Positions 24,580 to 59,390 of a stretch of DNA of 64,000 nt are shown here, piece after piece. A model generated the notes under the pieces. It was not told the origin of the DNA. It ran no database searches and worked only from the letters and a program-made list of their open reading frames with translations. This DNA is from a bacterium (GTDB taxonomy: Bacteria > SAR324 > XYD2-FULL-50-16). The DNA lies in assembly GCA_024275165.1 (NCBI GenBank), contig JAJRZQ010000037.1, positions 124,001 to 188,000 on the forward strand, given 5' to 3'. Made by a program: the position numbers and the translations under genes. Each line of letters begins with the position of its first letter. Position 1 is the first letter of the stretch.

Positions 24580-25647
24580 ATGGCCGTAGTGATTGTGACT
24601 GGTTCCGCCGGATTAATTGGCAGCGAAACTGCAAAATATTTTCATGCAAAAGGGCTGGAGGTGATTGGCATCGACAACGACATGAGAAAATACTTTTTCG
24701 GAAAGGACAGCTCCACCGTTTGGAATCGCCAAATCCTAGAAAAACAACTGCCCAACTACCGTCACCATTCCCTTGATATCCGGGATCAAGCAGGTATCGA
24801 CAGCTTGTTTAAGCAATACGGCAACAACATTAAAGCGGTGATTCACTGTGCTGCCCAACCCTCCCACGATTGGGCCGCCAAAGAGCCTTTAACCGACTTT
24901 CATATCAACGCTACAGGCACCCTCAATTGTTTAGAATCGACCCGCCTCCATTGCCCTGACGCGGCCTTTATCCATTGCAGCACCAATAAGGTTTATGGAG
25001 ATAGCCCAAACCTCCTTCCCTTGATCGAGCAAGAAACCCGCTGGGAAATCGATTCAAATCACCCCTATTTTCAGGATGGAATTGACGAGCATCTGACGAT
25101 CGATCAAAGCAAGCACAGTATTTTTGGAGCTTCCAAAGCGGCAGGAGATATTTTAGTCCAAGAATATGGACGTTATTTTGGAATGAACACGGCGACCTTT
25201 CGTGGAGGTTGCTTGACCGGCCCAGCCCATTCAGGAGCGGAGTTGCACGGTTTTTTGGCTTGGTTGGTCAAATGTGCGGTCACCGGCCAAGCCTACACGA
25301 TTTTCGGTTATAAGGGAAAACAGGTCAGGGACAACATTCACTCCTATGACCTGGTCAATGCCTTTTACCACTACTTCGAGCAGCCTCGTCCCGGTGAGGT
25401 CTACAACATTGGGGGCAGTCGGTTCAGTAATTGTTCGGTCTTAGAGGCAATTCAAATCATCAAGGAACTCGCCGGTTATCGACTCAATTATACCCATTCT
25501 GATAAAAACCGCGAGGGGGATCATATTTGGTGGATTAGTGATATCAACAAGTTCAAAGAGCATTACCCGCAATGGAACTTAACCTATGATATTCGGCGAA
25601 TTCTGCAAGAAATCATAGATGCGACCATCGAGCGGCAAAAGCAATGA
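24580..25647 (+). CDS. CDP-paratose/tyvelose-2-epimerase-like NAD-dependent SDR
   Basis: '[38 protein letters not shown]', '[12 protein letters not shown]', '[30 protein letters not shown]'. Confidence 0.85.
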
Positions 25648-26396
25648 AACTTTCTCTAATTATACCCGCGCATAACGAAGAAGACTGTATCGCCTCAACC
25701 ATTAGGGGTATTTACGAGGCCTTGACCCCCGAAGGAATTGAATATGAAATTTTAGTGATCAATGACAATTCAACTGATCGAACGATTGAAATTCTGAATG
25801 CGTTGCAACAGCCCATCCCCCAACTGCGCCACATTGACAACCACCTCCCTAATGGCTTCGGCTTTGCAGTCCGCTGCGGCTTAGAGAACTTTCAGGGGGA
25901 TGCCGTGGTCATCGTCATGGCTGATGCCTCCGACCCCCCTGCCGATATCATCCGCTTTTATCGGGAATTAGAAAAAGGATACGACTGCGTCTTTGGAACC
26001 CGCTTTTCCCAGGGAGGTCAGGTCATTGACTACCCCATCGTCAAACTCATTCTCAACCGCTTGGCCAATCTGTTTATTCGAATCATCTTTCAATTTCGCT
26101 ATAATGACACAACCAACGCCTTTAAAATGTACCGCGCCGAAGTGGTTGAAGGGCTCAAACCCTTTTTAAGCCATCATTTTAACCTCACTGTCGAGTTGCC
26201 CCTCAAATGCATCATTCGTAAATACAGCTATTCCGTAATTCCCAACACCTGGGTCAATCGTGCTGCCGGGGTTTCTAAACTGAGGGTCCGAGAAATGGGC
26301 AGCCGCTACCTTTTTATCGTGCTTTATTGCTGGCTGGAAAAATGGCTGAGCCGGGGTGACTATATTGACTCGAAAAATCGACCTAGACTCAAATAA
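25644..26396 (+). CDS. family 2 glycosyltransferase, polyprenyl-phosphate sugar synthase-like (DPM1-like)
   Basis: '[25 protein letters not shown]', '[13 protein letters not shown]', '[33 protein letters not shown]'. Confidence 0.85.
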
Positions 26397-26516: not shown

Positions 26517-27612
26517 ATGGCCTCTGTCTCGGCTGACAAACTTGGCTTATCGACAACCAAAAAGGTATGGATGTTTTTCCAGCGCACTCTTAAAGAGCTT
26601 CTCGTACTCCTCGCCAAGTTCGTGGTCGCTCTTGGTTTGTTATTTTACCTCTACCAAAACGACAGCATCCACTTTGAACAATTGCTGGTTTTGCAAGATC
26701 AACCGCTTCAATTGGCCTTGATGCTCGGAGCTTTTTTGTTGTTGCTTTTTGCCCTTGCTGGGGGGCCGTCTTTGGATGATCTTAAAGATCGCCGGGTTTC
26801 AGATCTCATTCTTCAGCGCCCTTAGGCTGACCTGGATCGGGATGTTTTTTAGTTTGGCGCTGCCGGGCGCCGTTTCAGGCGACCTGTATAAAGGCTATTA
26901 TCTAGTCAAGGAGCAGGAAAATAAATCACTCAAAAAACCGGTGCTCACCCTTTTGGCAGACCGAATCATTGGACTTTTCAGCCTCATTTTGAGTTCGTTT
27001 ATTGGCATTTTTTTAAATATGGATTTAATTTTAGAACAAACCTTGATGCATTTTCTGGCAGGGAGCATCATTTTAGTTTTTTTTTCAGGAGTGATTTTAT
27101 GGGGCGGAACGATCTTCCTAGGGGGGAAAGCGGCAGAATTAATCTTTAAGGTTCTCTTTTTTCTGCCAAAATCAAAAAGCTTTCACCAGCTCTTGCAGAT
27201 CACCGAAGTTTTTAAAAAACATCGTTTAACATGGTTGGGGATGGTCTTATTGTCCATGGCTTCACATTTGGTTATGATTTTTATTTTTTTACAAATCATT
27301 CATTTATTGCAGATGCAAGCAGTGGATTGGTCTTTGCTCTTGTTAATCATCCCCCTCGGTATGATTACCACAGCCATACCCATCGCCCCAGCTGGAATTG
27401 GGATCGGTCATATTGCGTTTGAAAACCTTTTCATGCTGACTCAGGGGATCAAAGGCGGCGCGGATTTATTTAACCTGTATGTCGCAACCCAGATTTTATT
27501 TTCTTTACTGGGAATGATTCCTCTTTTTTGGGTTAGAAAAAATAATTTTCCAACAGGCCTCCCCTATAGAAAATTTAAAATCAGCTTCTTTTTTTTTAAC
27601 AAATTACGATGA
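26517..27612 (+). pseudogene. flippase-like / LPG_synthase_TM-type membrane protein, frameshifted at a G6 tract (26760-26765)
   Basis: ORF 26517..26825 (frame 0) and ORF 26749..27612 (frame 1). Deleting one G gives continuous '...LLLLFALAGGRLWMILKIAGFQISFFSALRLTWIGMFFSLALPGAVSGDLYKGYYLVKE', matching the layout of the paralogue at 56038..57042 ('AAWRWKLLLTALNLPLEWSKALLLTFIGNFFNAVLPGSVTGDVLKGYYVV'). Confidence 0.8.
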
Positions 27613-30032
27613 AATTAAAAATTCAATTATCAATCTCCTCGCTTCTAATTTTGACAACCCTCTTGTTTTCAAAGGAGATTGATAATGCATATTATTTAGT
27701 CGCTGCCGATGCAATCCGCCGGGGGCTCATCCCCTACCATGACTTTTTTCAATTTCAATACCCCCCTGGCGCAGTTTACCTTTACGCGGCGATTTTGGAT
27801 CTCTTAAAAAACCTGTTACTGCAACGCCTGCTCTTTGCGGGGATAATATTACTGGCATCCTGGCTCCTCATCAAGTTTTTGATTAAACGCCTATCTCTAG
27901 AAATCACGCCGATTTATGCCTTTGCCGTTACCGCCTTGTTTCTTGCGGTTTCCCCCAATAGCTTGCGTAGTTACCTGCTTGTTGAATCCAAAGGTTTTTT
28001 TAATGTTCTCTCCTTTATGATTTTGACGATTTTGTTGCCGCTAGACATAAAAAAACGAGAATTTGATAAAGTCTTATCGAGTTGGGTGATTGGGGCGGCT
28101 ATTGTTTTTATCGGCCAAAAGCTTTTAAATGGCCCCATTCTTCTCTGTTTTCTTGGGTTTATCGGGGTTTATCAATATTTCAACAAACAAACCCTGGGCA
28201 TCAAATATTGGCTTTACCTCTTCGGTAGTTTCTCGCTGATTTCGGCCCTCGCGCTCATTTTACTTTTAGACCAAGCGGTTTATTTTCAAGCTTATCAATC
28301 CCTTTTGTTAGTCTATGGCAATGCGGAACAATTTAGCCTGGAAAAGTTTAACAGCATCCTTTTTTTTAGTTTTTTGAACTATTTTTTCCCCCTCTTGTTG
28401 CTCCCCTTTGTAGCAAAGCGACCTATATTTCAGCAACACCAGCATTTAATTCTACAAGCGAGTAGTTTTGTTGTCGGCTATTGTTTTGTTTATAATGTGG
28501 CCCCTAAAAAGACCTTCCTTCTATATTCTCAGGCCCCGCTGTTAGCGGTTTATGTTTTCTTAGGCTTAATGCTAGCCGATGGGATGCGGCCTCACATCGG
28601 TAAAAGCTATTGGTTAACCATCGCTGCCCCTGCCCTGGCTGTTTTTACTCTACATAACCTGTATAATGACTGGCGAATTCCAGAAGCCTTGGCACATAGC
28701 CACAGCCTGGAAGAATACCACAATATTGCGCAGGCCGAGCCCATCAAGGGAGTAAACTTACCTCCGGCAGAGGCCCCGAAGGATTGGGCCCTGCATGATG
28801 AAGGCTCCTGGCTGCAAGGCTTTGCTGAGCTTTCCAAAGGCGGATTGTATGAATACCTAGGGATGCAAGCACTCGCTGATTATATCGCGGAACACAAGTC
28901 CCAGCTCAACCCAGATGGAGACAAGAAATACCGCTATTTATACTATGCCCTGCCAATCCTCATGGCTGGGGAACAACCGGCTTTGGAAAACATCTCCGGC
29001 CATGTCTTTTTGTTGCATAAACCCGACCCAACCTACGCTGAAGAGCTGCAAAAAAATCAGGTCATGACCTTAGATCGCTTTTCCAGTTATTTGAAGGACG
29101 ATGAGTCCGCTGGCTGGATTTTATCCCATGAAGACATCGATTCTCTTTTTACTTTAAGAAAGACCGATTTTCCCTGTCTAGAAATTCAGCCTCTCTTTGT
29201 TCATCCGCCCTTTGGCTTGTACCGTTTAATCAACAAGGAACAGCGCTTCGAACAAAAACCCTTCGCTAACTTGATTTCTCAGCTCAATCAGGAAACGAGC
29301 ATTGACGAGGTCATCATCCCTCAAGAACTCAAGATGAAACTTTGCGATTTAAAAGACCTTAAAAAACCTTATAAAATCAGAAGAATTTCCGATATCCAGA
29401 GATGTTTACCCCAGCAGCTCAAATCCCCTAAGGCTCATGTCGCCCTCCTACTACCCACAAAGGGCATCGACTCACCCCCCTTTCAAGCAGAAGCGGTAAG
29501 TCAGATAAAACTCAAAATCAATTCGGCCAATTTATTATCTACCTCTGCTCTCGGGGCTACTCCAGGGGTAGAGAAACACTTACAATCGATAGAGACCTAC
29601 TTGGTCAATGGTGCCACCTCTTGCATTCCAGAGGGCTTTTTACCCTTGGAAGATTTTAAATTCAGCCAGGCCTATTATGTCTCTAGAGAGGGTGAGGTTG
29701 AAATGCCCTCCAACGGGGAGATTACTTCCCCCCTCTATTATCTTAAGCCTGGCAAGTATCAATTTCAATTTAACGCAAGAGGGGTCACCGCCGAGGGAAC
29801 CGGTACGGCAATCATCCTGCAGATCATCGATTTGAGTACGGCAAAACAGGCCTATGGAAATCAATTTTATTTTTCCGAAAAAACGCAAACCATTACCTCG
29901 GAGTTAGATGTAGAAGCGGCAGGCAACTATGTCTTTCGCTTTTCCTTTGTTAATGATGCCATCATTGAAGGGCAGGATCGCAACGCTTTCATCCAGAATG
30001 TTTCCTTAATGCCCTTAAACCAAACCGAGTAA
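27609..30032 (+). CDS. GT-C-like polytopic membrane protein with C-terminal conserved beta-rich (CBM60-like) module, paralogue A
   Basis: 807 aa; N-terminal ~12 hydrophobic segments ('AADAIRRGLIPYHDFFQFQYPPGAVYLYA'); C-terminal module ~29601-30030 with 'TSCIPEG...LSTAKQAYGNQ...FVNDAIIEGQDRNAFIQNVSL'. Confidence 0.75.
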   Translation: MKLKIQLSISSLLILTTLLFSKEIDNAYYLVAADAIRRGLIPYHDFFQFQYPPGAVYLYAAILDLLKNLLLQRLLFAGIILLASWLLIKFLIKRLSLEITPIYAFAVTALFLAVSPNSLRSYLLVESKGFFNVLSFMILTILLPLDIKKREFDKVLSSWVIGAAIVFIGQKLLNGPILLCFLGFIGVYQYFNKQTLGIKYWLYLFGSFSLISALALILLLDQAVYFQAYQSLLLVYGNAEQFSLEKFNSILFFSFLNYFFPLLLLPFVAKRPIFQQHQHLILQASSFVVGYCFVYNVAPKKTFLLYSQAPLLAVYVFLGLMLADGMRPHIGKSYWLTIAAPALAVFTLHNLYNDWRIPEALAHSHSLEEYHNIAQAEPIKGVNLPPAEAPKDWALHDEGSWLQGFAELSKGGLYEYLGMQALADYIAEHKSQLNPDGDKKYRYLYYALPILMAGEQPALENISGHVFLLHKPDPTYAEELQKNQVMTLDRFSSYLKDDESAGWILSHEDIDSLFTLRKTDFPCLEIQPLFVHPPFGLYRLINKEQRFEQKPFANLISQLNQETSIDEVIIPQELKMKLCDLKDLKKPYKIRRISDIQRCLPQQLKSPKAHVALLLPTKGIDSPPFQAEAVSQIKLKINSANLLSTSALGATPGVEKHLQSIETYLVNGATSCIPEGFLPLEDFKFSQAYYVSREGEVEMPSNGEITSPLYYLKPGKYQFQFNARGVTAEGTGTAIILQIIDLSTAKQAYGNQFYFSEKTQTITSELDVEAAGNYVFRFSFVNDAIIEGQDRNAFIQNVSLMPLNQTE

Positions 30033-30393
30033 AATCTACGCCCTGCCATGCGCTAAGAGAATGGTGAAGAGATAACGAGGCAAGGTTCGAGGCAAGCCAT
30101 TCATGTTGGCCACTGAGGTCACCGTAGAATCCAAAATGCTGGGTTTTGGACTCGATTTAATTAAGGTGATCTGGTACATCTTGCCTACCATAACACTTAA
30201 AGCTTGGCATTGCTCAAAGTAGTCCGGTTGGGCCTTCCCCTGCCCAAGGTTCGCGAGATGACAAAAGACCAAGATCTTTGATTTATTTTTTATAAAATCC
30301 AAAAACCCCTGCGCCCTACTGTGCAAATATGAGAGCCATCGCCTTCAGAGCCGACTTGATTAAACAATCGCACCTCATTTAAGAAGTTGAACC

Positions 30394-32763
30394 TTGCCAA
30401 ACAACAATCGCTCTAAGCCTTGGATGATCTCTATTCTAGCAATGGAGATGCTAGGCAGCTTTATTTTAAGTCTCTTATTTTCAAAATACTTCTACGACCC
30501 CCTTCATTGGGGGTTAATGATGAGCAACGCCATTGATTTAATCGGCGGTAAGTTGCCTTATAAAGAAATCTTTATTCAATATGGAATTTTAACAACCCTG
30601 TTGCAGGGCTTAGGGCTGATCCTCTTCGGCAAAAAAGTCTATGTCATTGGTATGGTGACGGCTCTATTTTTTGGTTTTTCTTTACTCCTGCTCTATAAAA
30701 TTTGGTCTCATTTCCTACCTTTTTGGCTGTCGCTCATTTTAGTGGTGATTTTTTGGGCACTCAGCCCATATATCCGCTATCCCTGGTCAAACTATTTCTC
30801 CACCCTTTTTCTTTTCATCGCCATTTGGCTGCAGATTCAATTTTTTTATCGGCCTGCCTCAAGAAAAAGAAATCAAGGTTTATTCTTTTTGGGTTTTTTT
30901 TACGCCTTGGCCATATTAGCTAGAGAAACGGTCATCGTTATCGTTGTCCCCTATTGGCTGATTTTTATCCTTGCCGACGCTCTCGCGGCAAGAAACAAAC
31001 AGACCTCTTTTAATATTTCTAGCTATGCTAAGATCAGCCTTGGCTTCCTTGTCCCCTTGATTCCCTTTGGTATTTATCTAATTTCGCAAGGCATCGTTTC
31101 AAATTGGTATTTGCACAGTTTACCGATTTGGGGGGGGTATGTGGAGACACACATCCAAAATGTTGGAGTCCTTGGAAAAATAATACAAATTTTTTCTTTT
31201 AGTACCACCAACCCGAATCACACCTGGAACCCTTGGATAAGCTTTCTTTTAAGCCCCTTACTTTATCTCAATATCGCACTCCTAATTTATATTGCTTACC
31301 AAGTTTTTTTTAAGCGGCAAAGTTTTTCCAAACATGCTCCTGCCTTTATTTGCGCGCTTCATGCGCTGCTCGGTGTTAGCGCTATTCTCCATTACCAAGA
31401 CCCCTTTCGGGTGCAATTAAGCAACCTGATTGGCTTAGCGGGTATTTTTTACTTAGGCCAAGAATTTTTAAAAACCCGGCCTGCATGGCTACAAAACTCG
31501 ATCCGCTTTATCCTTGTTAGTGGCCTCCTGATCACTGTATACGGGCCATTTGTCGAGAATATGCAACTGCTAGTTCATCGCTTAAAGGCTGAAACCATCA
31601 ACCCGGTCACGGTTCACCCTTTTTTAACGGAGCAGAAATTTGACCAAAGCACCATTACCCGTTATGAGGAGCTAAAAGTTCTCTTCAATAAGGCAATGCG
31701 GTTCTCTCGTTGCGACATTTTATATTTAGAAAACCAGACGCAAGATGTCTTTCTCAACTTTATAACGCCTCTACAAATTGCCCACCATGCCTCTTCCTTT
31801 GATCACAACACCGAGATTCTCAATAGAATCGTAGACCCGGCGAACTCTGAAAAAGTCAAACAGCTTGAGAAAAACGGGAACCTCGTAATCTACCAATATA
31901 CGAATGCCCAAATCCCAAAAAATTATTTTATTTATGATATTTATCAAGATGCTCGGGTATTGCTTCCGAATATATGTTTCGGTTCGCATTCAAAACCAGA
32001 CATCTATAGCAATCTAATCCAACGATTAAACCAAATCAATGGCCTGCAAAAGGTAATATTTTCTTATGAATTAGGGCTTATAGAACAAGATTTAACCCCA
32101 TTGAAAATACCCTTTGAAGAGAAGCCCATGCACGAGATCGCCCAATGTTTCACTGCCTTTCCAGGCACAATCGAACAAGCGAGGGTCGTCTCCGTCCTTC
32201 CCGTTAAGCTCAACACAATCAATGCGGTCTATTCACCGGAACTCTCAAAGCGCATTGGAGAAGTTAAAGAGGATAAAGCCCATCAGATTGACCGGATCGC
32301 CGCCAAACCTGATACTGGATTAGGGTTTGATCTGCTGATTTTACCAGTACCCAAAGCGACTTCCTGCCGCCATGAAGGGATTTTTCCCCCCTCGAAATTA
32401 ACCCTCACTGTTCCTTACGATGATCATTTCGGAGAAATCAGAATGGTCTCCAACGGAAGCATCAGCCTACCGCTCTATCAGTTATTAAAAGGCAAATATA
32501 CTTTTCGTTTTAAAGGCAGGGGCACTCCGGCAGGAGGAATCAAGGCGAAAATCCAAGTCAATATTATCCATATTAATACGGCTAAGCAGATTTATGGTAG
32601 TGAAATTGACCTTGATGAGGGAGCCCAGACCTTTCCAATTGACTTTGAAATCGACAAAAACGGAGTTTACCAGATTCGCATCACCTACTTAAACGATGCG
32701 ATCATTGATGGGCAAGATCGAAACGCTTTTATTAAGGATCTTTCCTTAAAATCACTGCCATAA
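30394..32763 (+). CDS. GT-C-like polytopic membrane protein with C-terminal conserved module, paralogue B
   Basis: 789 aa, TTG start; 'SNAIDLIGGKLPYKEIFIQYGILTTLLQ'; C-terminus 'TSCRHEG...INTAKQIYGSE...YLNDAIIDGQDRNAFIKDLSL'. Confidence 0.75.
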   Translation: MPNNNRSKPWMISILAMEMLGSFILSLLFSKYFYDPLHWGLMMSNAIDLIGGKLPYKEIFIQYGILTTLLQGLGLILFGKKVYVIGMVTALFFGFSLLLLYKIWSHFLPFWLSLILVVIFWALSPYIRYPWSNYFSTLFLFIAIWLQIQFFYRPASRKRNQGLFFLGFFYALAILARETVIVIVVPYWLIFILADALAARNKQTSFNISSYAKISLGFLVPLIPFGIYLISQGIVSNWYLHSLPIWGGYVETHIQNVGVLGKIIQIFSFSTTNPNHTWNPWISFLLSPLLYLNIALLIYIAYQVFFKRQSFSKHAPAFICALHALLGVSAILHYQDPFRVQLSNLIGLAGIFYLGQEFLKTRPAWLQNSIRFILVSGLLITVYGPFVENMQLLVHRLKAETINPVTVHPFLTEQKFDQSTITRYEELKVLFNKAMRFSRCDILYLENQTQDVFLNFITPLQIAHHASSFDHNTEILNRIVDPANSEKVKQLEKNGNLVIYQYTNAQIPKNYFIYDIYQDARVLLPNICFGSHSKPDIYSNLIQRLNQINGLQKVIFSYELGLIEQDLTPLKIPFEEKPMHEIAQCFTAFPGTIEQARVVSVLPVKLNTINAVYSPELSKRIGEVKEDKAHQIDRIAAKPDTGLGFDLLILPVPKATSCRHEGIFPPSKLTLTVPYDDHFGEIRMVSNGSISLPLYQLLKGKYTFRFKGRGTPAGGIKAKIQVNIIHINTAKQIYGSEIDLDEGAQTFPIDFEIDKNGVYQIRITYLNDAIIDGQDRNAFIKDLSLKSLP

Positions 32764-32854
32764 GCTCGACGGATTTTTTTTGGTAAGTAAATCGATTCAT
32801 TCATCAAGCTCGATTTTATAACCGAGTTTATTGAATACTTGAAGGAGAATAGAC

Positions 32855-35248
32855 ATGACTGCCAGTTTAAATCGACCTGGGAAAGGGCTAGAAATAAAAT
32901 TCGGGCTCAATTACAAGCTGCTTCTGGCAATCTATTTGTTGGCTCACCTTCCCCATTTAGCCTTTATGAACGCTCGATTTTGGGATGGTTGGAGCATCTA
33001 TAAAGCCAGCCCCGAACTCTTAAGAGAGATCAATCTACAGGTGGGGCTTCCTTTGGCTGGAGAACTACATGTACTCATCAGCCAAATCGGTTGGTGGATA
33101 TATCCCTTCTTGATTCTTCTTGCGATGCTCGCGGTCGTCCTTTGCACCTACAATGTGGCAAGCAAGCATACCTCTTCGACCTCTGCCTTTTGGGTTGCCG
33201 CATTTTCAGCGGTCCTACCGATGAATTTTGCTAGGATTTCTTCTGCTACTCTAACCTATTCATTCTGTTTTGCTTTTTTTATGTTTGCTTGGTGGCTACT
33301 GCTGCTGTCACTCGAAAAAAGAAAAATACTCAATCGAGCCATAGCGATAGTGGGGTTCTTGTTGTCCTTTCAAACCGGTTCTTTGCTGGTTTTCTATGCG
33401 ATGCCATTCCTTTCATATGGGTATTTGGCCGCAAAACAAAACCGGAATTTTACTTTAAGAAACCACGCCCGAACCGTAACCTTTTCCCTGGATCTGATTG
33501 CCGCTCCGGTTGCTTTTTGGATGTTTAAAATCGCCTTCTTTCAGCCCTACGGGATGTTTGAAAACTATAACACCTTAAATATCCGCCTTTCAACCTTTCT
33601 TGATTCCTGGCCCCCTATTTTTTCTTTTTTTGCTGGTACTGGTGTGGGCATTGGGATGGGGGGCATCTTTGTCATTTTATGCCTATTCATTTTCATCCCC
33701 AATAGCTGGCTTCGCGCCTTCCCAGAGCTTGAAAATAGAGGGGTGAAGCAGGCCATTGGCTTGATTCTCATTGGCTTGATTGCTTGTTATGTGGCCGTTT
33801 TCCCTTACGCTGCCGTGGATCGCTGGCCTTCTTATAACACCTGGACATCCACCAGGCATCAGCTTGCCATGCCCATAGGAATGTCCATCATCTTGTATGG
33901 GATTATCGAAATCTTTACCTTTAGGATCAAAGCATTTGCTTCTACCTTGGGTAGCATGATCCCCTTACTAGTTTGTTCCATCGGCATCGCGAGCTGGTGG
34001 AATGTCTATGCTGAAATGTATGTGGATCATTTAAGACAGAAAGCGTTAATTTATGAGTTTGGAAAAAACGATACTTTTGCAAAGGGTAATTTTGTTTTTC
34101 TTGATGCGACGGGAACCTTGGCGTTTAACACCCCAACCGGGGTTTCAGAATATGCCGCATTGCGTAGTGAGGCCGGCCATCCTCATAATTCGCTGATCGT
34201 ACCTTACGACCACTTGATGCAATATCCCAGTTTTGGGGCCTTTACTAAAGCGACAAAAAAATATCTCGGACCCTGGTCTAAGGTTGAGGGGATTGACCCT
34301 AGGATCAGACCCCTTTATTTTAACCTTCGCCTTAAAACACCGATCGAAAATAAAATGCGCTACGCTTTTAATATGTATCTTTTGCATTTATTTTCCCCCG
34401 CCTTAGAAGAACGAAATTTACGAAATTTGCTTTATCTAGACGGCCCCTTTTTACCCTACTCCTCCTCAAACCTTTTTGAAGTCTTAAACGAGGAGGAGGC
34501 AATCGAGTTTTTAATCCTCCCCCAGGAATTAGGGCTTAAAAATATGGAGTTGCAACTTCTCCGTAAGCCCTTTGTAATTAAGCCCATCGCAGAAATTGAA
34601 AAATGCTTTCCAGCGCAAACTGAAACCCCACCTAATGGCGGAAACACGCTTGTTTTGCCCGTTTTTCCTACTGGCGCGCAAAGTTTGAGTGATCCATGGA
34701 CCGAGCGTCTTTTATCTAAAGTAAATCCCTCCAATGAACTGGCGACCATCGAAAACCGCTTTCCTAGGTCGGGTAACGGCAAAGCCATTGCACCCCAGAG
34801 CTTTCAAATTTTCCGAATTGCCGGAACCTCAAACTGTATCCCCAACGGGCAGGTTCCCATGACTGATATCTTTAGAAACCCTCCCTATGGTCATGATTCA
34901 TCAGAAATTCGCATGATTTCAAATGGAGATGTGACCCTGCCCTTCTATTATTTTACCCCAGGGAAATATCGTTTTGAGTTTGAATACAAAGGCAGCCCCG
35001 CAGATCATACCAATGCAAAACTCCTCACCCAGATTGTGCAAATGAATACGGCAAGGCAAATCTACGGCAAGGAGGTTTACGCCACAGAAAAGGAACAACT
35101 TGAAGTCACCTTGTTCGAGATTGAAACGGCTGGATACTACCGCTTACGAGTTTCCTTTGTCAATGACGCAATGATTGATGGTGAAGACCGTAACGCCTTT
35201 ATCAAACGAGTTTCTCTCTATCAGGTTAAAAATGCATCGGTGCCCTAA
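32855..35248 (+). CDS. polytopic membrane protein with C-terminal conserved module, paralogue C
   Basis: 797 aa; C-terminus 'SNCIPNG...MNTARQIYGKE...FVNDAMIDGEDRNAFIKRVSL'. Confidence 0.75.
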   Translation: MTASLNRPGKGLEIKFGLNYKLLLAIYLLAHLPHLAFMNARFWDGWSIYKASPELLREINLQVGLPLAGELHVLISQIGWWIYPFLILLAMLAVVLCTYNVASKHTSSTSAFWVAAFSAVLPMNFARISSATLTYSFCFAFFMFAWWLLLLSLEKRKILNRAIAIVGFLLSFQTGSLLVFYAMPFLSYGYLAAKQNRNFTLRNHARTVTFSLDLIAAPVAFWMFKIAFFQPYGMFENYNTLNIRLSTFLDSWPPIFSFFAGTGVGIGMGGIFVILCLFIFIPNSWLRAFPELENRGVKQAIGLILIGLIACYVAVFPYAAVDRWPSYNTWTSTRHQLAMPIGMSIILYGIIEIFTFRIKAFASTLGSMIPLLVCSIGIASWWNVYAEMYVDHLRQKALIYEFGKNDTFAKGNFVFLDATGTLAFNTPTGVSEYAALRSEAGHPHNSLIVPYDHLMQYPSFGAFTKATKKYLGPWSKVEGIDPRIRPLYFNLRLKTPIENKMRYAFNMYLLHLFSPALEERNLRNLLYLDGPFLPYSSSNLFEVLNEEEAIEFLILPQELGLKNMELQLLRKPFVIKPIAEIEKCFPAQTETPPNGGNTLVLPVFPTGAQSLSDPWTERLLSKVNPSNELATIENRFPRSGNGKAIAPQSFQIFRIAGTSNCIPNGQVPMTDIFRNPPYGHDSSEIRMISNGDVTLPFYYFTPGKYRFEFEYKGSPADHTNAKLLTQIVQMNTARQIYGKEVYATEKEQLEVTLFEIETAGYYRLRVSFVNDAMIDGEDRNAFIKRVSLYQVKNASVP

Positions 35249-35433: not shown

Positions 35434-36522
35434 GTGAAAAAAACAGCGCTCATTACCGGTATCACAGGTCAGGACGGGGCCTATCTAGCCGAATTCCTGC
35501 TCAAAAAAGGCTATGAGGTTCACGGTCTAAAGCGCCGTTCCTCTTTATTTAATACGGATCGGATTGATCACCTTTACCAGGATCCCCACGAGAAAAAACG
35601 AAAATTTTTTCTCCACCATGGCGATTTAACGGACTCAACGAATCTGATTAGAATCATTCAAACGGTTCAACCCACCGAAATCTATAATCTCGCGGCGCAA
35701 AGCCATGTTGCCGTCTCCTTTGAAACCCCAGAATATACCGCCAATGCGGATGGAATTGGCACCCTCAGGGTACTCGAAGCGATCCGCATTCTAGGGCTCG
35801 AAAAAAAGGTGCGTTTTTACCAGGCTTCCACCTCTGAACTCTATGGGCAGGTAGTGGAGACTCCCCAAACAGAAACAACTCCTTTTTATCCCCGTAGTCC
35901 CTACGCCGTAGCTAAACTTTACGCCTACTGGATTACCGTAAACTATCGCGAAGCTTATGGCATTTATGGTTGTAATGGCATCCTGTTCAATCATGAGTCA
36001 CCAATCCGAGGCGAAACCTTCGTAACCCGCAAAATCACCCGTGCCATGGCCCGCATTAAACTCGGGCTACAAAGTTGCCTCTTTTTAGGAAACATGGACG
36101 CATTAAGAGACTGGGGCCACGCCCGCGATTATGTCGAAGTCATGTGGCTCATGCTGCAACAAAAAGAACCGGAGGACTTTGTCATAGCAACGGGCGAGCA
36201 GCACTCGGTACGCGAATTCGTGACCCTTGCCGCCAAAGAATTGGGGATGGAGATTAACTGGCAGGGCAAAGGTATTGAGGAAAAAGGGTATCTCCCTGGA
36301 CAAAGTGAGCCCATCATCGCTGTAGACCCTCGCTACTTTCGTCCCACTGAGGTCGAAACCCTGTTAGGTGACCCGACCAAAGCGAAAAGCAAATTAGGGT
36401 GGAACCCTCGCATCACCTTCCAAGAATTAGTAAAAGAAATGGTGATCAGTGATTTGCAAGACGCAGAGCGAGATACCTTGATCCGCAAGGAAGGATATAA
36501 AAGCTTCGACTATCATGAATAA
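35434..36522 (+). CDS. gmd: GDP-mannose 4,6-dehydratase
   Basis: '[48 protein letters not shown]', '[21 protein letters not shown]'; GTG start. Confidence 0.95.
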
Positions 36523-37462
36523 AAATGCCAAAATTTATGTAGCTGGCCACCTCGGTCTAGTCGGTTCAGCGATTATAAGAAAACTTCAACAAGAAGGGTT
36601 CCACAATCTCTTGACCCGCACCCGGCAGGAGTTAGACCTAATACGCCAAGAAGCGGTTGAGCAGTTTTTTGCCCAAGAAAAACCGGAATATGTTATTCTT
36701 GCCGCTGCTAAGGTCGGTGGAATTCAAGCTAATGATTTCTATCGCGCCGATTTCATCTACGAAAACCTGCAAATTCAAAATAATATCATTTACAACGCCT
36801 ATAAGCAGGGCGTGGCTAAACTTCTCTTTTTAGGCAGTAGCTGCATCTACCCCAAACTAGCACCCCAACCCTTGAAAGAAGAATACCTTTTGACCGGCCT
36901 ACTCGAACCAACCAATGAGGCCTATGCGGTAGCCAAGATTGCGGGCATTATCATGTGCCAAAGCTACAACCGACAATATGGAACTCAGTTTTTATCGATC
37001 ATGCCGACCAACCTTTATGGCCCCTTCGACAACTTCGATCTGAATAATTCCCATGTACTGCCGGCCATGATCCGCAAATTTCATGAGGCAAAGGTCAGCA
37101 ACAACGCTGCCGTCACCCTTTGGGGAAGCGGAAAACCCATGCGAGAGTTTCTCTATTCAGAAGACATGGCGGACGCTTCTCTGTTTGCCTTGCAGCAGAT
37201 CCAGGTTGGCGACACTCCCAGTGATCTATATAATATTGGCTCTGGAAAGGATATCCCCATCAAAGAGTTGGCCCTCCTCATTCAAAAAATTGTGGGTCAT
37301 CAAGGAGACATCCACTGGGATTCAAGCAAGCCCGATGGAACCCCGAGAAAACTCATGGATGTACAAAAAATGACCGACTTGGGCTGGAAAGCCAAAACAA
37401 GTTTACCAGAGGGAATAGAAAAAACCTATCAATGGTTTTTGGCTAATCTCCCTAAAAGCTAA
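36515..37462 (+). CDS. fcl: GDP-L-fucose synthase
   Basis: '[19 protein letters not shown]', '[34 protein letters not shown]', '[41 protein letters not shown]'. Confidence 0.95.
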
Positions 37463-42981: not shown

Positions 42982-43620
42982 GGAGGCTCTGAAAAGTTCC
43001 CCAACTATCTAGAATCTACAGGTTAAATAATAAGCTGAGTCCAACTTAACCCTAGGTGAGGAATGCCATGAGTCAGCTCAGTTTCATTTCCCTTGCCCAC
43101 GCAAAAAAAGAACTTAAACCAGAGAAGTTTCTCAAACAAATGGATCAAGTCGTTCCCTGGCAAAGGCTATGCGAGCTGATTTATCCCTTTTATTCAGAAA
43201 AGAAGCGGGGCCCTAAGAAGGTGCCTTTGGAGAGAAGGATACGGATTCTTTGTTTACAGCAGTGGTATGGGTTTTCCGATCCAGCCATGGAAGAAAAGAT
43301 ATATGATCGCATGACCTTTCAAACCTTTCTAGGTTTGGATTTACTAAAAGATTCGGTTCCCGACGAAACAACGATTCTCAACTTTCGCCATTTCCTTGAC
43401 GCTGCCCGCGCGGGGCAATTAAACGAACCGCAGGCTCACAGAATCAAGAGTTATGAAGTCGCTATCTGAGTTCAACAAGAGCCAGGGTTGAGCATCCCTT
43501 TCAGGTGTTAAAGCGCCAAGGGGATATCGAAAGCTAAGATATCGAGGGTTATTAACTCAGCGTGTCTATAAGTTCCTGATTTTAAAAACCACTGGGGTCT
43601 GGGGCTTTTCAGCCCCAGCC
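42982..43620 (+). mobile_element. IS5-family insertion sequence relic, catalytic core missing
   Basis: IR-like GGAGGCTCTGAAAAGTTCC at 42982-43000; transposase N-terminus 43056-43469; C-terminal transposase remnants 'ARVEHPFQVLKRQ' and 'KLRYRGLLTQRVY' in shifted frames at ~43488-43570. Confidence 0.65.
43056..43469 (+). pseudogene. IS5-family transposase N-terminal fragment
   Basis: 'MSQLSFISLAHAKKELKPEKFLKQMDQVVPWQRLCELIYPFYSEKKRGPKKVPLERRIRILCLQQWYGFSDPAMEEKIYDRMTFQTFLGLDLLKDSVPDETTILNFRHFLD', then truncated. First in-frame Met of the likely real start is at 43068. Confidence 0.85.
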
Positions 43621-44369: not shown

Positions 44370-45512
44370 ATGAACAAAACTAAGTTTGGAGAGAATAAAA
44401 AATATCTGCTATTTTTTTCAATTTTCCTACTTCTTCTTGCCTTGGTCATTTATCGAATCTCTGCAATTCATGAGGCGATACAAAATGGGCAGGGTCTTGC
44501 CCCCAACCTGGGAAATTGCAATCGAACTCTGCAACCCCATGAACTGCATTCTAAGACCTACCCCTTCACCGCTTTATTAGAGCAAATCAATCCAGCTGAA
44601 CAAATTAAAGAGGTAATTTTTCCCCGCGAAATGATGCTCCATGCCTGCGACTTACAGGCTTTACATAAACCCTTTTCTATCCGCCCTATTAGCGAGCTAG
44701 CAGGATGTTTGCCCGACCAGAGAGGAGCCCTCACAGGGCCTGTAGGCCTTGTTTTACCAAGAGATCCATATCTTTTTCCCTTTGGAAATCCCAAGCGCAT
44801 CGCCCATTTCGCTGAAAGTCATGCATCCAAGACCAACCCAAAGTTTCATCTTCCTCCTATTCAAAGCGACATTAGCGATAAATGGGGGCTGGACAAAGGG
44901 TTGCAAACATTTGTGGTCGCCGGTGTATCGGGGGCTCCCTCATGTTTTCAAGAGGGTGTGGTGTCCTTTTCTGATTATCAACTCAGTAAAAGCTTCCAGC
45001 GCGGTGAAGATGGGGTTCTTAGAATGAATTCCAATGGGGAAGTTGCCTTGTCCTATCATTTCAAACAAGGGCGGTATCGCTTGGAAATTGAAAGTTTCGG
45101 CACTATTGCAGAGAACGAATACGCCAAATTTGCAGTCCACATTGTCAACTCCAATACAGCAAGGCAAATTTACGGGAATGTGTTTATTTCACCCAAAGTC
45201 TTTGGCGTGGATAGCTTGCATTTTGACGCCTCAACCGAAGGGGATTACCGGATAACCGTCTCATTTATCAATGACCTCACAAGTAACGGGCAGGATCGAA
45301 ATTTCAAGCTTAAAAAGATTTCGTTATTTTCCCTCTCGAACCCGCGCCAAGATCCTAACCTATTCGTTGATTGGTTGGAGCAAATTCCACAATATAAATG
45401 GGATGCTTTGCTGATCTTTGCTTTTTTAGTTGTTCAAGATCTTTTGCTTTCTCCCTTTATTCAATTCATGTTCGAAAAAAAATCCTTTCAAAGATTGAAG
45501 GATTTCTCTTAA
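44370..45512 (+). CDS. stand-alone version of the C-terminal CBM60-like module, with N-terminal and C-terminal hydrophobic anchors (paralogue D)
   Basis: N-terminal 'YLLFFSIFLLLLALVIYRI'; 'EVIFPREMMLHACDLQALHKPFSIRPISELAGCLPDQ', 'PSCFQEG', 'SNTARQIYGN', 'FINDLTSNGQDRNFKLKKISLFSL'; C-terminal 'WDALLIFAFLVVQDLLLSPFIQFMF'. Confidence 0.75.
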   Translation: MNKTKFGENKKYLLFFSIFLLLLALVIYRISAIHEAIQNGQGLAPNLGNCNRTLQPHELHSKTYPFTALLEQINPAEQIKEVIFPREMMLHACDLQALHKPFSIRPISELAGCLPDQRGALTGPVGLVLPRDPYLFPFGNPKRIAHFAESHASKTNPKFHLPPIQSDISDKWGLDKGLQTFVVAGVSGAPSCFQEGVVSFSDYQLSKSFQRGEDGVLRMNSNGEVALSYHFKQGRYRLEIESFGTIAENEYAKFAVHIVNSNTARQIYGNVFISPKVFGVDSLHFDASTEGDYRITVSFINDLTSNGQDRNFKLKKISLFSLSNPRQDPNLFVDWLEQIPQYKWDALLIFAFLVVQDLLLSPFIQFMFEKKSFQRLKDFS

Positions 45513-45556: not shown

Positions 45557-46867
45557 ATGACCAATCCCCTCTTTCGAAAAACAATTCTGTTGGCATTATG
45601 CTGTTTATTTGTCTCCCTATCTTTTTTAGGATCCTATACCTTAGGCGGTGGCGACATGAAGTACTGGATTTCATGGATTGTGAATGCAGAACAACAAGGA
45701 ATTCAGTTAGGTTACGCAGAAAACGGGGATTTTTACCCTCCTTTAGCATTAATATTCTTAAGTGCCTCCTACGATGTTTTTATGGCTTTCTTTGGCGGGC
45801 ATTTTAATGGAGATTGGTATTTTCAACCGGAACTGTCGGAATATTTTTTATCCGTAAAATTATTGATCTCCCTCTTTTTAACTGCTACTATCACAATTTT
45901 TTATCTAATATCTAGAAATTTATTCCTTTCAACTTTATTGTTCATATTTTTGTTTTTCAATTCTGTTTTAGTGGGGTTGATCGATATTTTATTTGCGCCT
46001 TTTTTCATTTTAAGCCTCTGGGCGTTACGAGAAAATCGCCATATTATATTTGCCCTATTCTTTACCATGGCTATGTTCGTCAAATGGCAACCCCTTATCA
46101 CCCTACCCTTCTGCCTGTTTTATATAATAAATAAAAACAAACCAATTTGGTGGCAAGTCAATCCTAAAGTAACTCTGCAAATCTTTTTGACTGCTCTGTC
46201 GACATTTTTAATGATATTTCTGTTTTTTGGAATGCCAATGGTCAACTCATTTTTAAACGCCACGCACGATAATTTTATTAGCGGAAATGCCTTAAATTTC
46301 AATTGGGTATTTACCTGGTTTTTGCGAAAATATCACCCCCACCTATTCGGCGGACTCACGCAAAATGGGGAGAAAATCGAATATATCAGAACGCATTGGA
46401 GCTTGATCTATACAGGAATCGCTATTTTTTATGCTTCTTATGCCGTCACATTTTTGCGTTTTATAAAAAAAGAAAAAACTTTTACATCCTTTTTAACCTA
46501 TACCGGAGTCGGATATTTATTATATGTTACTTTTAACATAGGGGTGCATGAAAACCATATTTTTTTAGCCGTCATTTTGTTTGGGCTGCTCGCAGGGGAA
46601 GACCAAAAACAAACTTGGATGTTTGTAACGGTCGGAATGTTACAGGTAAGTAACCTGCTCTTGTTCATTGGAATCCATTTATCTTTTTTCAATCTATCCA
46701 CCTCTTTTGTGATTGACCGGATCCTTTGGAAAGCGGACATATCCTTATATATAGCTTTGTCAGGTCTATTTTTAGTAGGTTTTCTTTTTTTCAAAACCCA
46801 CCCTGAGCGACAAAAGTTGTCGGAACAAGCAAAGCCTTTACCCACTAAGCATGATCTACTCTCTTGA
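45557..46867 (+). CDS. polytopic membrane protein, GT-C (GT87/DUF2029-like) candidate
   Basis: 436 aa, 'GGGDMKYWISWIVNAEQQGIQLGYAENGDFYPPLALIFLSASY' acidic first loop followed by multiple hydrophobic helices. Confidence 0.55.
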   Translation: MTNPLFRKTILLALCCLFVSLSFLGSYTLGGGDMKYWISWIVNAEQQGIQLGYAENGDFYPPLALIFLSASYDVFMAFFGGHFNGDWYFQPELSEYFLSVKLLISLFLTATITIFYLISRNLFLSTLLFIFLFFNSVLVGLIDILFAPFFILSLWALRENRHIIFALFFTMAMFVKWQPLITLPFCLFYIINKNKPIWWQVNPKVTLQIFLTALSTFLMIFLFFGMPMVNSFLNATHDNFISGNALNFNWVFTWFLRKYHPHLFGGLTQNGEKIEYIRTHWSLIYTGIAIFYASYAVTFLRFIKKEKTFTSFLTYTGVGYLLYVTFNIGVHENHIFLAVILFGLLAGEDQKQTWMFVTVGMLQVSNLLLFIGIHLSFFNLSTSFVIDRILWKADISLYIALSGLFLVGFLFFKTHPERQKLSEQAKPLPTKHDLLS

Positions 46868-55276: not shown

Positions 55277-55984
55277 CTAGTTATCGAAACGGGAAAAGAA
55301 CAGGTCGAGCAAAATCCGCACGCTGCCCCAGTTACTTTGCCCTTTGGACATGGAATACTCTGTGTATTTAATTTCCGTGGGGATCTCCTGGTATTTAAGC
55401 TTTGCCTGGGCAATCCATTCGAGAATTTCAGAAGCGTGGGACATACGGTCTTGCTGAATTTTCAACTTTTCCGCCGCTGCTCTACTTAAGATACGAAACC
55501 CGTTGTGGGTATCGGTTAGGCGGATGCCCGCGGTAAAGTTTGTAAAGAGAATCGCCAGCTTGAGAATGATCTTGCGGGTAAAGGGAACCGCTTGCGGCTT
55601 TAAAAAACGACTGCCAATTAATATATCCAATCCCTGCTCCCGCAAAATTTGCACTGCTTCGGGAATTAATTCAGCGGGATGCTGCCCGTCTGAATCCAGG
55701 GTAACAATTTCCGTTGCCCCTTCTTCCAACGCGAATTCCACCCCCGTTTGCAAGGCGGCGCCTTGCCCCCGATTAACGCAATGGCGTAAAACCAAGGCTT
55801 TTGTTTTCGAGGCTTGAGCAAAGGTATCATCATTCGAACCATCATCCACCACAATAATATGCTCCACAATGTTTAAGGTATCTTCAATCACCTGAGCGAT
55901 CATTGCCCCTTCGTTAAAGGCGGGCATCACCACATAAACCCCACTGAGGTCAGGGTCGGGTTGGATATTTGTTTCTTGAGTCAT
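55277..55984 (-). CDS. DPM1-like family 2 glycosyltransferase (polyprenyl-phosphate sugar synthase)
   Basis: 'VYVVMPAFNEGAMIAQVIEDTLN', 'IIVVDDGSNDDTFAQA', 'EIVTLDSDGQHPAELIPEAVQIL'. Confidence 0.9.
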   Translation of the reverse strand: MTQETNIQPDPDLSGVYVVMPAFNEGAMIAQVIEDTLNIVEHIIVVDDGSNDDTFAQASKTKALVLRHCVNRGQGAALQTGVEFALEEGATEIVTLDSDGQHPAELIPEAVQILREQGLDILIGSRFLKPQAVPFTRKIILKLAILFTNFTAGIRLTDTHNGFRILSRAAAEKLKIQQDRMSHASEILEWIAQAKLKYQEIPTEIKYTEYSMSKGQSNWGSVRILLDLFFSRFDN

Positions 55985-56037
55985 GGATTTTGAGATTATT
56001 TCTTTGTAAATTATGCAGATGACCTCGTTCCGTCAAG

Positions 56038-57042
56038 TCAAGCCCATTGGTCTGGGGGGCTGGGAGTCTTATAAAGGAGATAGAAAATCCCTCCACAAAG
56101 ATTACCCACCCAGAGGGCTAAAAAATAGAGGTTGAAAATCTCAGCCCCCTGCTCAATCCCCGCGGAGTGATAAAGCAAGGCAAAGGCCAAATGCCCGACC
56201 CCCATTCCCCCCGGGGCAAGCGGCAGGGTAATGACCAAAAGCCCCGTGACCACCAATACCGCATGGGCGACAAAGGGCCCGGGGGCTGGGTTGTAGGCCC
56301 CATCAATGAGCCAAAACATCCCCAAGATAATCCCATAATTCAGCACCGACAGGGCACAACTGCCCCAAACCAGTTTTGGGGCCCCTCTCAACCGCTCCAA
56401 ACTCTCCATGACCTTCAGCAAAAAGTTTTTCAAGGGCAAACGACCCGCCCAGCGGTGTAACAAGGCAAGCACAAAGGGCGGGGCATAGAGCAAGGCGCAA
56501 AGCCCCAAAAAGGAAATCAACCCTAAACCCAAAATAACCCAAAAATAAAGATGGAGTTCCGCCATCAAAGCAGGTTCAGCCCACCAACCCCAAAACCCGA
56601 TCAACAACGCCCCCCACAAAAAACCGACAAAGCCCAACAAACGATCCGCGATCAGGGAAAGAAAAAGCAAAGTCTTGCCCTCACCCGGTTTAAGCCGAAC
56701 AACATAATAGCCTTTCAACACATCCCCGGTCACCGAGCCCGGTAGCACCGCGTTAAAAAAATTACCGATGAAGGTGAGCAATAAGGCCTTGCTCCATTCC
56801 AAAGGCAAGTTCAAGGCAGTCAGGAGCAATTTCCAACGCCAAGCGGCAAGCCCGACAATAAAGACCAGATTGATACATACCAAAGCGACAAAAAAACGCG
56901 GTCGCTGGTAGACAATCGCCATGGAGGATAAATCAAAGCGACCTGAGTGGAAGAGATAATAAAATATCCCCACAACCAAGGTTAGCTTAAAAAGCCATAA
57001 AACAACTTTCTTCATGGTCACGACAAATCTCGAGGAGGCCAA
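56038..57042 (-). CDS. flippase-like / LPG_synthase_TM-type membrane protein
   Basis: 'NLVFIVGLAAWRWKLLLTALNLPLEWSKALLLTFIGNFFNAVLPGSVTGDVLKGYYVVRLKPGEGKTLLFLSLIADRLLGF', 'LPLAPGGMGVGHLAFALLY'. Confidence 0.8.
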   Translation of the reverse strand: MASSRFVVTMKKVVLWLFKLTLVVGIFYYLFHSGRFDLSSMAIVYQRPRFFVALVCINLVFIVGLAAWRWKLLLTALNLPLEWSKALLLTFIGNFFNAVLPGSVTGDVLKGYYVVRLKPGEGKTLLFLSLIADRLLGFVGFLWGALLIGFWGWWAEPALMAELHLYFWVILGLGLISFLGLCALLYAPPFVLALLHRWAGRLPLKNFLLKVMESLERLRGAPKLVWGSCALSVLNYGIILGMFWLIDGAYNPAPGPFVAHAVLVVTGLLVITLPLAPGGMGVGHLAFALLYHSAGIEQGAEIFNLYFLALWVGNLCGGIFYLLYKTPSPPDQWA

Positions 57043-59390
57043 AAGTTATAATTGGCCACCTTCAGCCCTGCCAAAACCAGCAATAACAAGGTCAAACCCA
57101 ACCAAAAACGAGGGGAAAACTCTTTCCAGTCGCCATCTATATAGTCCATCTTAATCGCTTTGCTGCCCGCGGGAACCAAAATGCCGGTAAACAAGCCATT
57201 GACGGGGAACTTTCTCACCGCCATGCCGGAGGCAAAAAATTGGTAATTCTGCTGGTATTTGGCCGCGACAAAGAGCAAACAATCCACCAAGGGCGACTGA
57301 GCAAAACGAATCTCCCCTTCACCAAGAGGGGTAGCGTGCCAAGTCCACCCCTGACAACTCTTCAATCTTGAAGGCACCAAAGCTTGATCGATCAGGTAAC
57401 GCAAGCTTAATGCCTGAGAGCGATAAGCCACCAGGGCTTGAGGCAGGTTCTCTAGAGCAAGCCGCTCCCAAATTGTTGGGGCCTGCACTCTTGATTGATA
57501 GTTTTTAAATTCATAAAGATATAACCCTTCTTCCTGCTGATACAGGCGGAGCAGGGGATGCTCGACCAATGCGGGACTTACCACAAAGCGGACATTAAAA
57601 TGAGCGAGCAAAGCTAGGTTTTTCCCCAAGCGAAAGACATTGTCATTTTGTACCCTCCTTGGAGCCCCAAAGGTAAAACCCACTCCACCCGAGCCCGGGG
57701 GATAGTCCGAGACGCCATCTAAAGCGGCATACCATTTTTGCACCTCTTCACTATAGATATCATACCCATTTAGGCTAGGGATTTGAAAAAACCCTGGAGT
57801 ATTCCAAGAAAGGGTACCGTCGGCAAAGATACTGTAAAAAAAATCCTGCTCCAATTCCTGCCCAAGGGTCTGCAAAATCGGGTGTTTCCGCTCAAACTTC
57901 ACCTGCCGCGTCCGCGGCTCAAAAGCCCAAAAACCTTGAACCAATAATAAAGCCAGCAGAGTCAAGGCAGTAGGGACAGCCCAAGGGGATCTTTTTGCCC
58001 GAGCCAGACACCACAAACAGAGCCCCAAAACCAGCAAAGAACCATACACAACGGATTCAGTCCAAAAACCGGGCAGCCAATGATGCTTTCGGTTTGCATA
58101 AAAAAACACCGCCAACAGCAACGCCGCCACAGCCAAAACATTCCAACGCAACTTGGTAGAAGATTGAGCGATTTGCTCCCAAGCAAGCGCCATAAAAACA
58201 GCGGGCGCAAAGGCAAAAAGAACAAAAATCCGCTGTGGGTTCACCGAAGTGCTATAGGGCAAGGGATTCAGCCACCCCAGCCCCCCAGGCAGATAAATCA
58301 AAAATTGCATCAACAAGCTTAAACCCGCGCCCACCCAAACCATGCCCGCCGCCGCCCCCTGAACCCTCACCCTGCTCCAGGCCTTTTTGACCCATTGCCC
58401 TTGCGAAAAAAACAAAAGCGTAAAGGCAACGGCAATCAGGTTGGTGCCAAAACTCATTTCACAAATATTAGAATAGGGTAAAATATGCCGTTGAAAAAGC
58501 ACCCACTGCATGGGCCAAGCAGTCCAATCAATCAGCTGGGTCGTGGAATAGTCGATAAAAACGCGTTGGGCAAAACTCGAGGCCAAAATATCACGCGCCC
58601 TGGGGTACCAAGCAAACCAAGCGGCCACCAGTACCAAAATCGCGGCAACCGCCAGCAACCCCCCTGCAAGCCAAATTTGTTTCCGCTGCCTCGGCTCGCT
58701 GATCCATTGCCAAAGATAAAACACCGCAAAAAGAAAAACCAAAAAATAACCGGCAAAAAGCTGAGAGGGAGGATAATGACAAAGAATCAACTCCCAACTC
58801 GCCCAGATAAATACCAGCAACATACCAGGGGCGGGGAAGCGAACAAAACGAGCGGCACTGTACAAGAGTAGGGGAATCAAGGCCCCCGCCAATGCCAATT
58901 GATGCGCCCCCACCAGCCATACTAAGGAATGGGCGGCAAAGGCATAGGTTAGTGCCCCTGCCCAACGGGCTGCCCTATCCTGGAGCAAAAAGCCCAACAA
59001 CAGATACATCCCCAGCAAAGCAGTCAGCAAGATAAAGAAATACCGATAATTTCTCGCCTGCTGGAAGGAAAGCAAAAGAAAAGGGGCCTCATAAAGGGAA
59101 AGAAAATGACTGCGCTGATTAAAAGAAAGCATCCCGAAATTGAGAAAGGGGGTATAGCCCCCCTCTTCCACAAAGGAATGGCGGTTGCCCCGATCAAATA
59201 AAGCTTCTAAGGGCGCGCCAATCAAGGTATCGTCACTGCGAATGGGCTGCGCCTTTTTGATGTGGACTTCTAAGGGCTGAAAAAAGGGATTTTGCGCCAA
59301 GGGAGACAAAGCCAAAAAGGTTTGCTGAGAAAACAAGACCAACAAACCACCCAAGAGCAAAAAAGCGACAACCAGCTTTCGCATGGACAT
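57018..59390 (-). CDS. large GT-C-like (YfhO-like) membrane protein
   Basis: 790 aa, multiple helices plus large soluble C-terminal part ('FNVRFVVSPALVEHPLLRLYQQEEGLYLYEFKNYQSRV'). Confidence 0.6.
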   Translation of the reverse strand: MSMRKLVVAFLLLGGLLVLFSQQTFLALSPLAQNPFFQPLEVHIKKAQPIRSDDTLIGAPLEALFDRGNRHSFVEEGGYTPFLNFGMLSFNQRSHFLSLYEAPFLLLSFQQARNYRYFFILLTALLGMYLLLGFLLQDRAARWAGALTYAFAAHSLVWLVGAHQLALAGALIPLLLYSAARFVRFPAPGMLLVFIWASWELILCHYPPSQLFAGYFLVFLFAVFYLWQWISEPRQRKQIWLAGGLLAVAAILVLVAAWFAWYPRARDILASSFAQRVFIDYSTTQLIDWTAWPMQWVLFQRHILPYSNICEMSFGTNLIAVAFTLLFFSQGQWVKKAWSRVRVQGAAAGMVWVGAGLSLLMQFLIYLPGGLGWLNPLPYSTSVNPQRIFVLFAFAPAVFMALAWEQIAQSSTKLRWNVLAVAALLLAVFFYANRKHHWLPGFWTESVVYGSLLVLGLCLWCLARAKRSPWAVPTALTLLALLLVQGFWAFEPRTRQVKFERKHPILQTLGQELEQDFFYSIFADGTLSWNTPGFFQIPSLNGYDIYSEEVQKWYAALDGVSDYPPGSGGVGFTFGAPRRVQNDNVFRLGKNLALLAHFNVRFVVSPALVEHPLLRLYQQEEGLYLYEFKNYQSRVQAPTIWERLALENLPQALVAYRSQALSLRYLIDQALVPSRLKSCQGWTWHATPLGEGEIRFAQSPLVDCLLFVAAKYQQNYQFFASGMAVRKFPVNGLFTGILVPAGSKAIKMDYIDGDWKEFSPRFWLGLTLLLLVLAGLKVANYNFWPPRDLS

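Follow-up and report, generated by a model that had tools for sequence, protein, structure and literature searches.

Glycosyltransferases of the GT-C fold have about 7 to 13 transmembrane (TM) helices, with the catalytic acid in the first extracytoplasmic loop. In EmbC, AftD and the GT136 enzyme ORF12, the GT-C core is combined with a C-terminal glycan-binding module. The GT-C core followed by a C-terminal region is found in the mycobacterial arabinosyltransferases EmbC, EmbA, EmbB and AftD (PMC3044687). In EmbC, this region consists of a mixed subdomain and a Ca-binding jelly-roll subdomain, which is similar to CBM6 and CBM36 and binds the acceptor arabinan (PMC3044687). The Ca site of EmbC superposes on the Ca site of CBM36, and the Ca ion is described as solvent-shielded and as important for the integrity of the structure (PMC3044687). 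In CBM36 itself, the Ca at the ligand pocket is held by the side chains of Asp367 and Asp372 (PMC9165906). The GT136 ORF12 of Citrobacter youngae O1 is part of a three-component system, and its CBM binds the O-chain and is dispensable for activity under the tested conditions (PMC11127046).

The locus described here is from the genome of a SAR324 bacterium and was analysed as a stretch of 64,000 nucleotides (the window, positions 124,001 to 188,000 of contig JAJRZQ010000037.1; coordinates are those of the window unless the contig is named). It resembles the locus of ORF12 in the presence of putative GT-C proteins with a beta-rich C-terminal module of predicted glycan-binding function, in being probably of the O-polysaccharide kind, and in having a candidate donor synthase and flippase nearby (PMC11127046). 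Unlike this locus, when compared by description, that of ORF12 has one GT-C only, whose CBM is Ig-like and about 150 aa long, and the portion of its account considered here mentions neither standalone copies of the CBM nor its reuse on unrelated cores (PMC11127046). The Emb and AftD proteins are actinobacterial, unlike the source of the proteins described here. The original prediction had taken the architecture to be an undescribed one, and this does not hold for its kind, because GT-C proteins with a C-terminal glycan-binding CBM have been published (PMC11127046, PMC3044687). What is new is the module family, its occurrence in split form and the fact that unrelated cores share it; in the literature searched, neither a CBM60-like module in a GT-C role, nor six copies in one locus, nor the use of one module on unrelated cores, nor a split GT-C/CBM pair was found described. 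Our preferred reading, to which we assign a probability of roughly 0.6, is that the three fused proteins A, B and C and two split pairs (S1 with G1 and S3 with G3) are extracytoplasmic glycosyltransferases, of which the module holds the acceptor glycan by means of a Ca-dependent site like that of CBM60 and CBM36.

One module on three unrelated cores

The three fused proteins and their modules are located as follows.

27609..30032, + strand: protein A, 807 aa; GT-C-like polytopic core, linker and C-terminal module
29253..30029, + strand: module of A (residues 549-807), from profile, BLAST, shuffle and CBM60 comparisons
29253-29609, + strand: alpha/beta half of the module of A
29610-30029, + strand: CBM60-like beta-sandwich half of the module of A
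30394..32763, + strand: protein B, 789 aa, TTG start; PMT_2-like, GT-C-like polytopic core and C-terminal module
31999..32760, + strand: module of B (residues 536-789), with the CBM60-like half from 32341
32855..35248, + strand: protein C, 797 aa; polytopic core and C-terminal module
34460..35245, + strand: module of C (residues 536-797), with the CBM60-like half from 34820

The three open reading frames are thus present as originally predicted, and the C-terminal blocks said to be common to them are confirmed by local alignment, in which the last 140 aa score 45-55 SD over shuffled sequence for 3/3 pairs. The proposed length of about 140 aa is too short: the preceding ~120 aa also align above the shuffled sequences (11-23 SD), and therefore the shared module has about 255 aa. 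The N-terminal parts are as divergent as was claimed, with residues 1-400 of A, B and C being at chance level in every pair (z 0.2-0.9 for cores and linkers), and the similarity of the linkers between core and module is also at chance in every pair, when compared with shuffled controls. The chance-level similarity of the cores rules out that A, B and C are full-length paralogues. Since only the C-termini are alike, A, B and C are not ordinary paralogues but one module on three cores without a detectable relation.

Standalone copies of the module

When the whole genome (2.69 Mb in 47 contigs, 98% complete) is searched, six copies of the module are found, all on a single contig, at about 103 to 169 kb, in the window and just upstream of it. 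The three copies counted originally are therefore an undercount, with one extra copy at 44370-45512 of the window and two more a short way upstream of it. These other three copies are matched by an HMM of the A, B and C modules at E-values of 1.6e-68, 1.7e-65 and 8.9e-54, and the BLAST matches of the standalone copies to the modules have E-values from 6e-24 to 2e-129.

Contig 103508-104671, - strand: S1, 387 aa, TM helix, module, TM helix; outside the window
Contig 122034-123188, - strand: S2, TM helix, module, TM helix; outside the window
44370..45512, + strand: S3, 380 aa, module flanked by one predicted TM helix on each side (HMM E-value 8.9e-54)
45557..46867, + strand: G3, GT-C-like polytopic protein of 436 aa, directly downstream of S3

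The gap between S3 and G3 is 44 bp and that between S1 and G1 is 58 bp, with the enzyme downstream in both pairs. G1 (439 aa, outside the window) and G3 are both polytopic and have 52% sequence identity, and a BLAST comparison of G1 and G3 with the cores of A, B and C gives no match. The split pairs S1 plus G1 and S3 plus G3 tie the module to a fourth core type. Directly downstream of S2 there are transposase pieces and no GT-C-like gene, which is a point against the preferred reading. By eye, transposase-like pieces are seen at 43056-43469 of the window, near S3, and at 120838-121664 of the contig, downstream of S2, and they suggest that mobile elements have reshuffled the locus.

A gene pattern in which two parts are fused in some cases and split in others is the usual mark of a functional partnership, and such a partnership is probable for the module, fused to some of the polytopic enzymes and encoded beside others. 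In S1, S2 and S3, the N- and C-terminal tails outside the two TM helices are basic, so the standalone modules would be periplasmic if the positive-inside rule holds; two cysteines that are invariant in the module are likewise in keeping with this side. An unrooted tree built from the six modules places the standalone copies in a single supported group (98/97) and does not resolve the branching order of the A, B and C modules.

Outside its own genome, the full-length module was found in none of 57 relatives and in no other genome of a set of 52 from the phylum, which contains its own. It was also absent from 200 genomes of the phylum of a Pseudomonas relative (described below), from 17 and 77 genomes of two further phyla, searched without a positive control, and from viral contigs and plasmids. 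Among the sets searched, which sample the diversity in part, the full module is seen in this genome alone.

Fold and family of the module

The beta-sandwich that had been anticipated is predicted by AlphaFold2, and its nearest folds, as found with Foldseek, are jelly-roll CBMs. In the model, calculated from a six-row alignment (pLDDT 75, pTM 0.60), residues 1-119 form an alpha/beta half and residues 130-256 a beta-sandwich half, with pLDDT values mostly of 79-93 over residues 151-230. For the sandwich, Foldseek finds CBM4, CBM61, CBM16 and CBM22 at E-values of about 1e-6 to 3e-5, among other beta-sandwich proteins, with target TM-scores of up to 0.66, and the viral fold search gives tail-fibre and other beta-sandwich proteins and nothing specific. 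The confidence of the module model is moderate, and this weighs against the preferred reading. The arrangement of a mixed and a jelly-roll subdomain in EmbC resembles the two halves of the module (PMC3044687); Emb chains are absent from the PDB profile search (E up to 10) and from the best 50 Foldseek matches.

The proposed likeness to CBM36 and CBM60 stands as far as homology is concerned, being seen in the profile alignment, in the fold and in a pair of aspartates, and fails with respect to the family threshold. All six copies match PF16841 (CBM60) when E-values of up to 10 are considered, the best being 0.0012 (B, 0.0066; C, 0.0083), and 0/6 copies reach the gathering cut-off of 28.2 bits, the scores being 17.0-22.8 bits among the matches listed. 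Because this cut-off is not reached, the module is CBM60-like and, strictly, no member of CBM60.

A peptide-pattern scan of 85,462 species genomes, using one short pattern that may miss relatives, identifies three relatives, each of which matches the last part of the module only: a Pseudomonas GH5 cellulase, an Azospirillum three-repeat beta-helix protein and a galactose-oxidase-like protein of the Pseudomonadota. In all three, CBM60 is found well above the Pfam cut-off. When the six modules are aligned with these CBM60 domains by hhalign, the probability is 97.6% with an E-value of 3.4e-12 over 96 columns, which start at the SNG strand and include the whole DRN loop, and the CBM60-alignable part comprises the final ~105 aa. 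Because the ND..DG.D motif had led to the relatives, the comparison was repeated with the motif region removed, and part of the remainder aligns with CBM60 in register over 40 columns (P 0.0015), with a probability of only 17%. The alpha/beta half matches nothing in the CBM60 domains (P 0.88). The best PDB matches of the CBM60 domain of one relative are vCBM60 (2xfd, 2xhh) and CBM36 (1ux7, 1w0n), and these are weak, with E-values of 0.07-0.33; PDB sequence searches with the cores or the module themselves give no useful match. The beta-sandwich half is homologous to the CBM60/CBM36 modules, sharing with them the stretch from the SNG strand to the DRN loop and the Asp pair, but unlike them the module has an unrelated alpha/beta half in front. 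The CBM60 carriers examined are enzymes or repeat proteins, and 0/7 frames recovered from a 399-genome sample and Azospirillum have a predicted TM helix.

Asp236 and Asp243 (numbered within the module and given for the module of C) are invariant in 6/6 copies, and their spacing of 7 is the same as in the compared CBM60 domains. By alignment, they are equivalent to the aspartate pair of CBM36 and are candidate Ca ligands. The ND-x6-DRN loop is also kept in 6/6 copies. It is conceivable, but in our judgement unlikely, that the module is instead a protein-docking or assembly domain, in which the jelly-roll has been kept and sugar binding has been lost, and which unites the transferases in a periplasmic complex with the standalone copies as tethers or subunits. 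The alpha/beta half, without CBM likeness and nevertheless conserved in 6/6 copies, would suit a docking surface, as would the anchoring of the standalone copies at both ends and the solvent-shielded, structural Ca of EmbC (PMC3044687). The conservation of the loop and of the Asp pair throughout the six copies argues for a binding site rather than a docking domain, although a structural Ca would explain this conservation too.

The polytopic cores

For each of A, B, C, G1 and G3, 9-11 TM helices are predicted from hydropathy (about 10 in the core of A), which is within the GT-C range. Acidic residues are present in the first loop of A (Glu23 and Asp25), B (Asp35), C (Asp44, which is also present in a Legionella relative) and G3 (Asp33), and these are candidate catalytic residues only. 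The GT-C nature claimed for all three fused proteins is borne out to different extents. The core of B matches PMT_2 with an E-value of 2.7e-4, which is below the cut-off, over most of the profile. In A, the first-loop motif KEIDNAYY...GLIPYHDFFQFQYPPG resembles a GT-C loop by inspection only, and for C no family match supports the claim. No Pfam family is matched by the core of A or by that of C, which is a further point against the preferred reading. To the NCBIfam family NF046093 (cell-surface glycopolymer), G1 and G3 have weak matches, with E-values of 0.001 and 0.006, and G1 also has a very weak match to GT87; the structure model of G3 (pLDDT 36) is unusable, which does not help the preferred reading either. 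With the PMT_2 match, the first loop of A and the weak family matches of G1 and G3 taken together, the GT-C identity of B is supported, and that of A and of G1 and G3 is likely.

The core of C has a relative of 527 aa (26% identity, E-value 5e-28) in a lipopolysaccharide gene cluster on a plasmid of Legionella adelaidensis, and this relative also matches no GT-C family. It is encoded at positions 7911-9494 of plasmid 20 as an unannotated, module-free polytopic protein. Its length is about that of C minus the module, and so the C core also exists without the module. The core of B and G3 have no relatives in the other genomes of the phylum, and in the plasmids one relative is found for the C core and none for the cores of A, B and G3.

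The gene neighborhood

Upstream of A, and in a second, module-free cassette, the following genes are found.

25644..26396, + strand: GT2-family glycosyltransferase (PF00535, E-value 1.4e-24), candidate polyprenyl-phosphate-sugar synthase
26517..27612, + strand: flippase-like membrane protein (PF03706, E-value 6e-26), in the overlapping frames 26517-26825 and 26749-27612
55277..59390, - strand: second cassette, with a large membrane protein (DUF7657) at 57018-59390, a flippase-like protein and a GT2
56038-57042, - strand: flippase-like protein (PF03706/TIGR00374) of the second cassette
55277-55984, - strand: GT2 of the second cassette

The GT2, the flippase-like protein and A are encoded in tandem, such that the component set of a three-component periplasmic glycosylation system is present, and the start of A overlaps the end of the flippase-like gene by 4 bp. 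The flippase-like protein matches TIGR00374 with an E-value of 8.2e-11 and 41.9 bits, just under the cut-off of 43.2. The donor-synthase and flippase roles of these neighbors are candidate assignments by family name, and the gene set around A fits what would be expected of such a system in a surface-polysaccharide locus. GtrABC-type systems likewise have a GT2 donor synthase, a flippase-like membrane protein and a polytopic transferase side by side; unlike in those systems, the flippase candidate here belongs to PF03706/TIGR00374 and not to GtrA, and the transferase bears a module. In the second cassette, two genes overlap.

Some other features of the surroundings are also of note. A GtrA-family protein (PF04138, E-value 1.2e-16) is encoded at 116431-116880 of the contig (- strand), being a second kind of candidate flippase, and downstream of C, at 35434-37462, GDP-mannose dehydratase-like and GDP-fucose synthase-like genes are seen by eye. 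Several genes are split over two or three neighboring or overlapping frames (23480-24570, 26517-27612 and 40013-42281 of the window, and 105145-106964 of the contig), as if frameshifted by sequence errors or decay.

Even less probable than a docking role is a reading in which the proteins resemble polymerases or ligases and, instead of being GT-C sugar transferases, act in chain-length control, export or ligation, with the module holding the chain for polymerization, ligation or export. Like the cores, polymerases and ligases are polytopic, and they are found in such loci; A, as well as C with its Legionella relative, matches no GT-C family. Against this reading, B matches PMT_2 where such a match would be expected, G1 and G3 have their glycopolymer-family matches and G1 that to GT87, first-loop acidic residues are present in all cores, and A overlaps a flippase-like gene downstream of a GT2.

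Proposed mechanism and implications

In the preferred reading, A, B, C and the pairs S1 plus G1 and S3 plus G3 would be the extracytoplasmic glycosyltransferases of a surface-polysaccharide locus. The donors of the polytopic cores would be polyprenyl-phosphate sugars, which the neighboring GT2 would synthesize and the flippase-like protein would bring across the membrane. We infer that the cores are active enzymes, that the module is located on the periplasmic face, where its CBM60/36-like beta-sandwich would bind Ca and, in a Ca-dependent manner, the acceptor polysaccharide, and that the standalone copies act in trans. Acceptor recognition would thus be the function of the module, which would keep the glycan chain close to the active site.

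Because it is found attached to several unrelated cores as well as in the form of a separate membrane-anchored subunit, the module probably reads one common acceptor, to which each core would add its own donor or linkage. Being fused to three cores and standing alone beside a fourth, the module probably serves as a reusable element for holding the sugar chain as it grows. A more far-reaching proposal, which we put forward tentatively and with somewhat more doubt than trust, is that the module is a lineage-specific glycan reader, fused to at least three unrelated cores and serving also as a trans subunit for a fourth core type, by which several sugar additions are addressed to the same surface glycan. 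A point against the preferred reading is that the module may be present and yet unneeded, since the CBM of ORF12 binds glycan and is nevertheless dispensable for activity (PMC11127046).

If the preferred reading is true, acceptor recognition in periplasmic sugar transfer would be modular and could be detached from the enzyme. The CBM of ORF12 binds the chain and is not needed under the tested conditions (PMC11127046), and a locus having the module in fused as well as separate versions would be a natural test of what the CBM does in GT-C enzymes. The module could also help to predict side-chain additions in surface-glycan loci that have yet to be studied.
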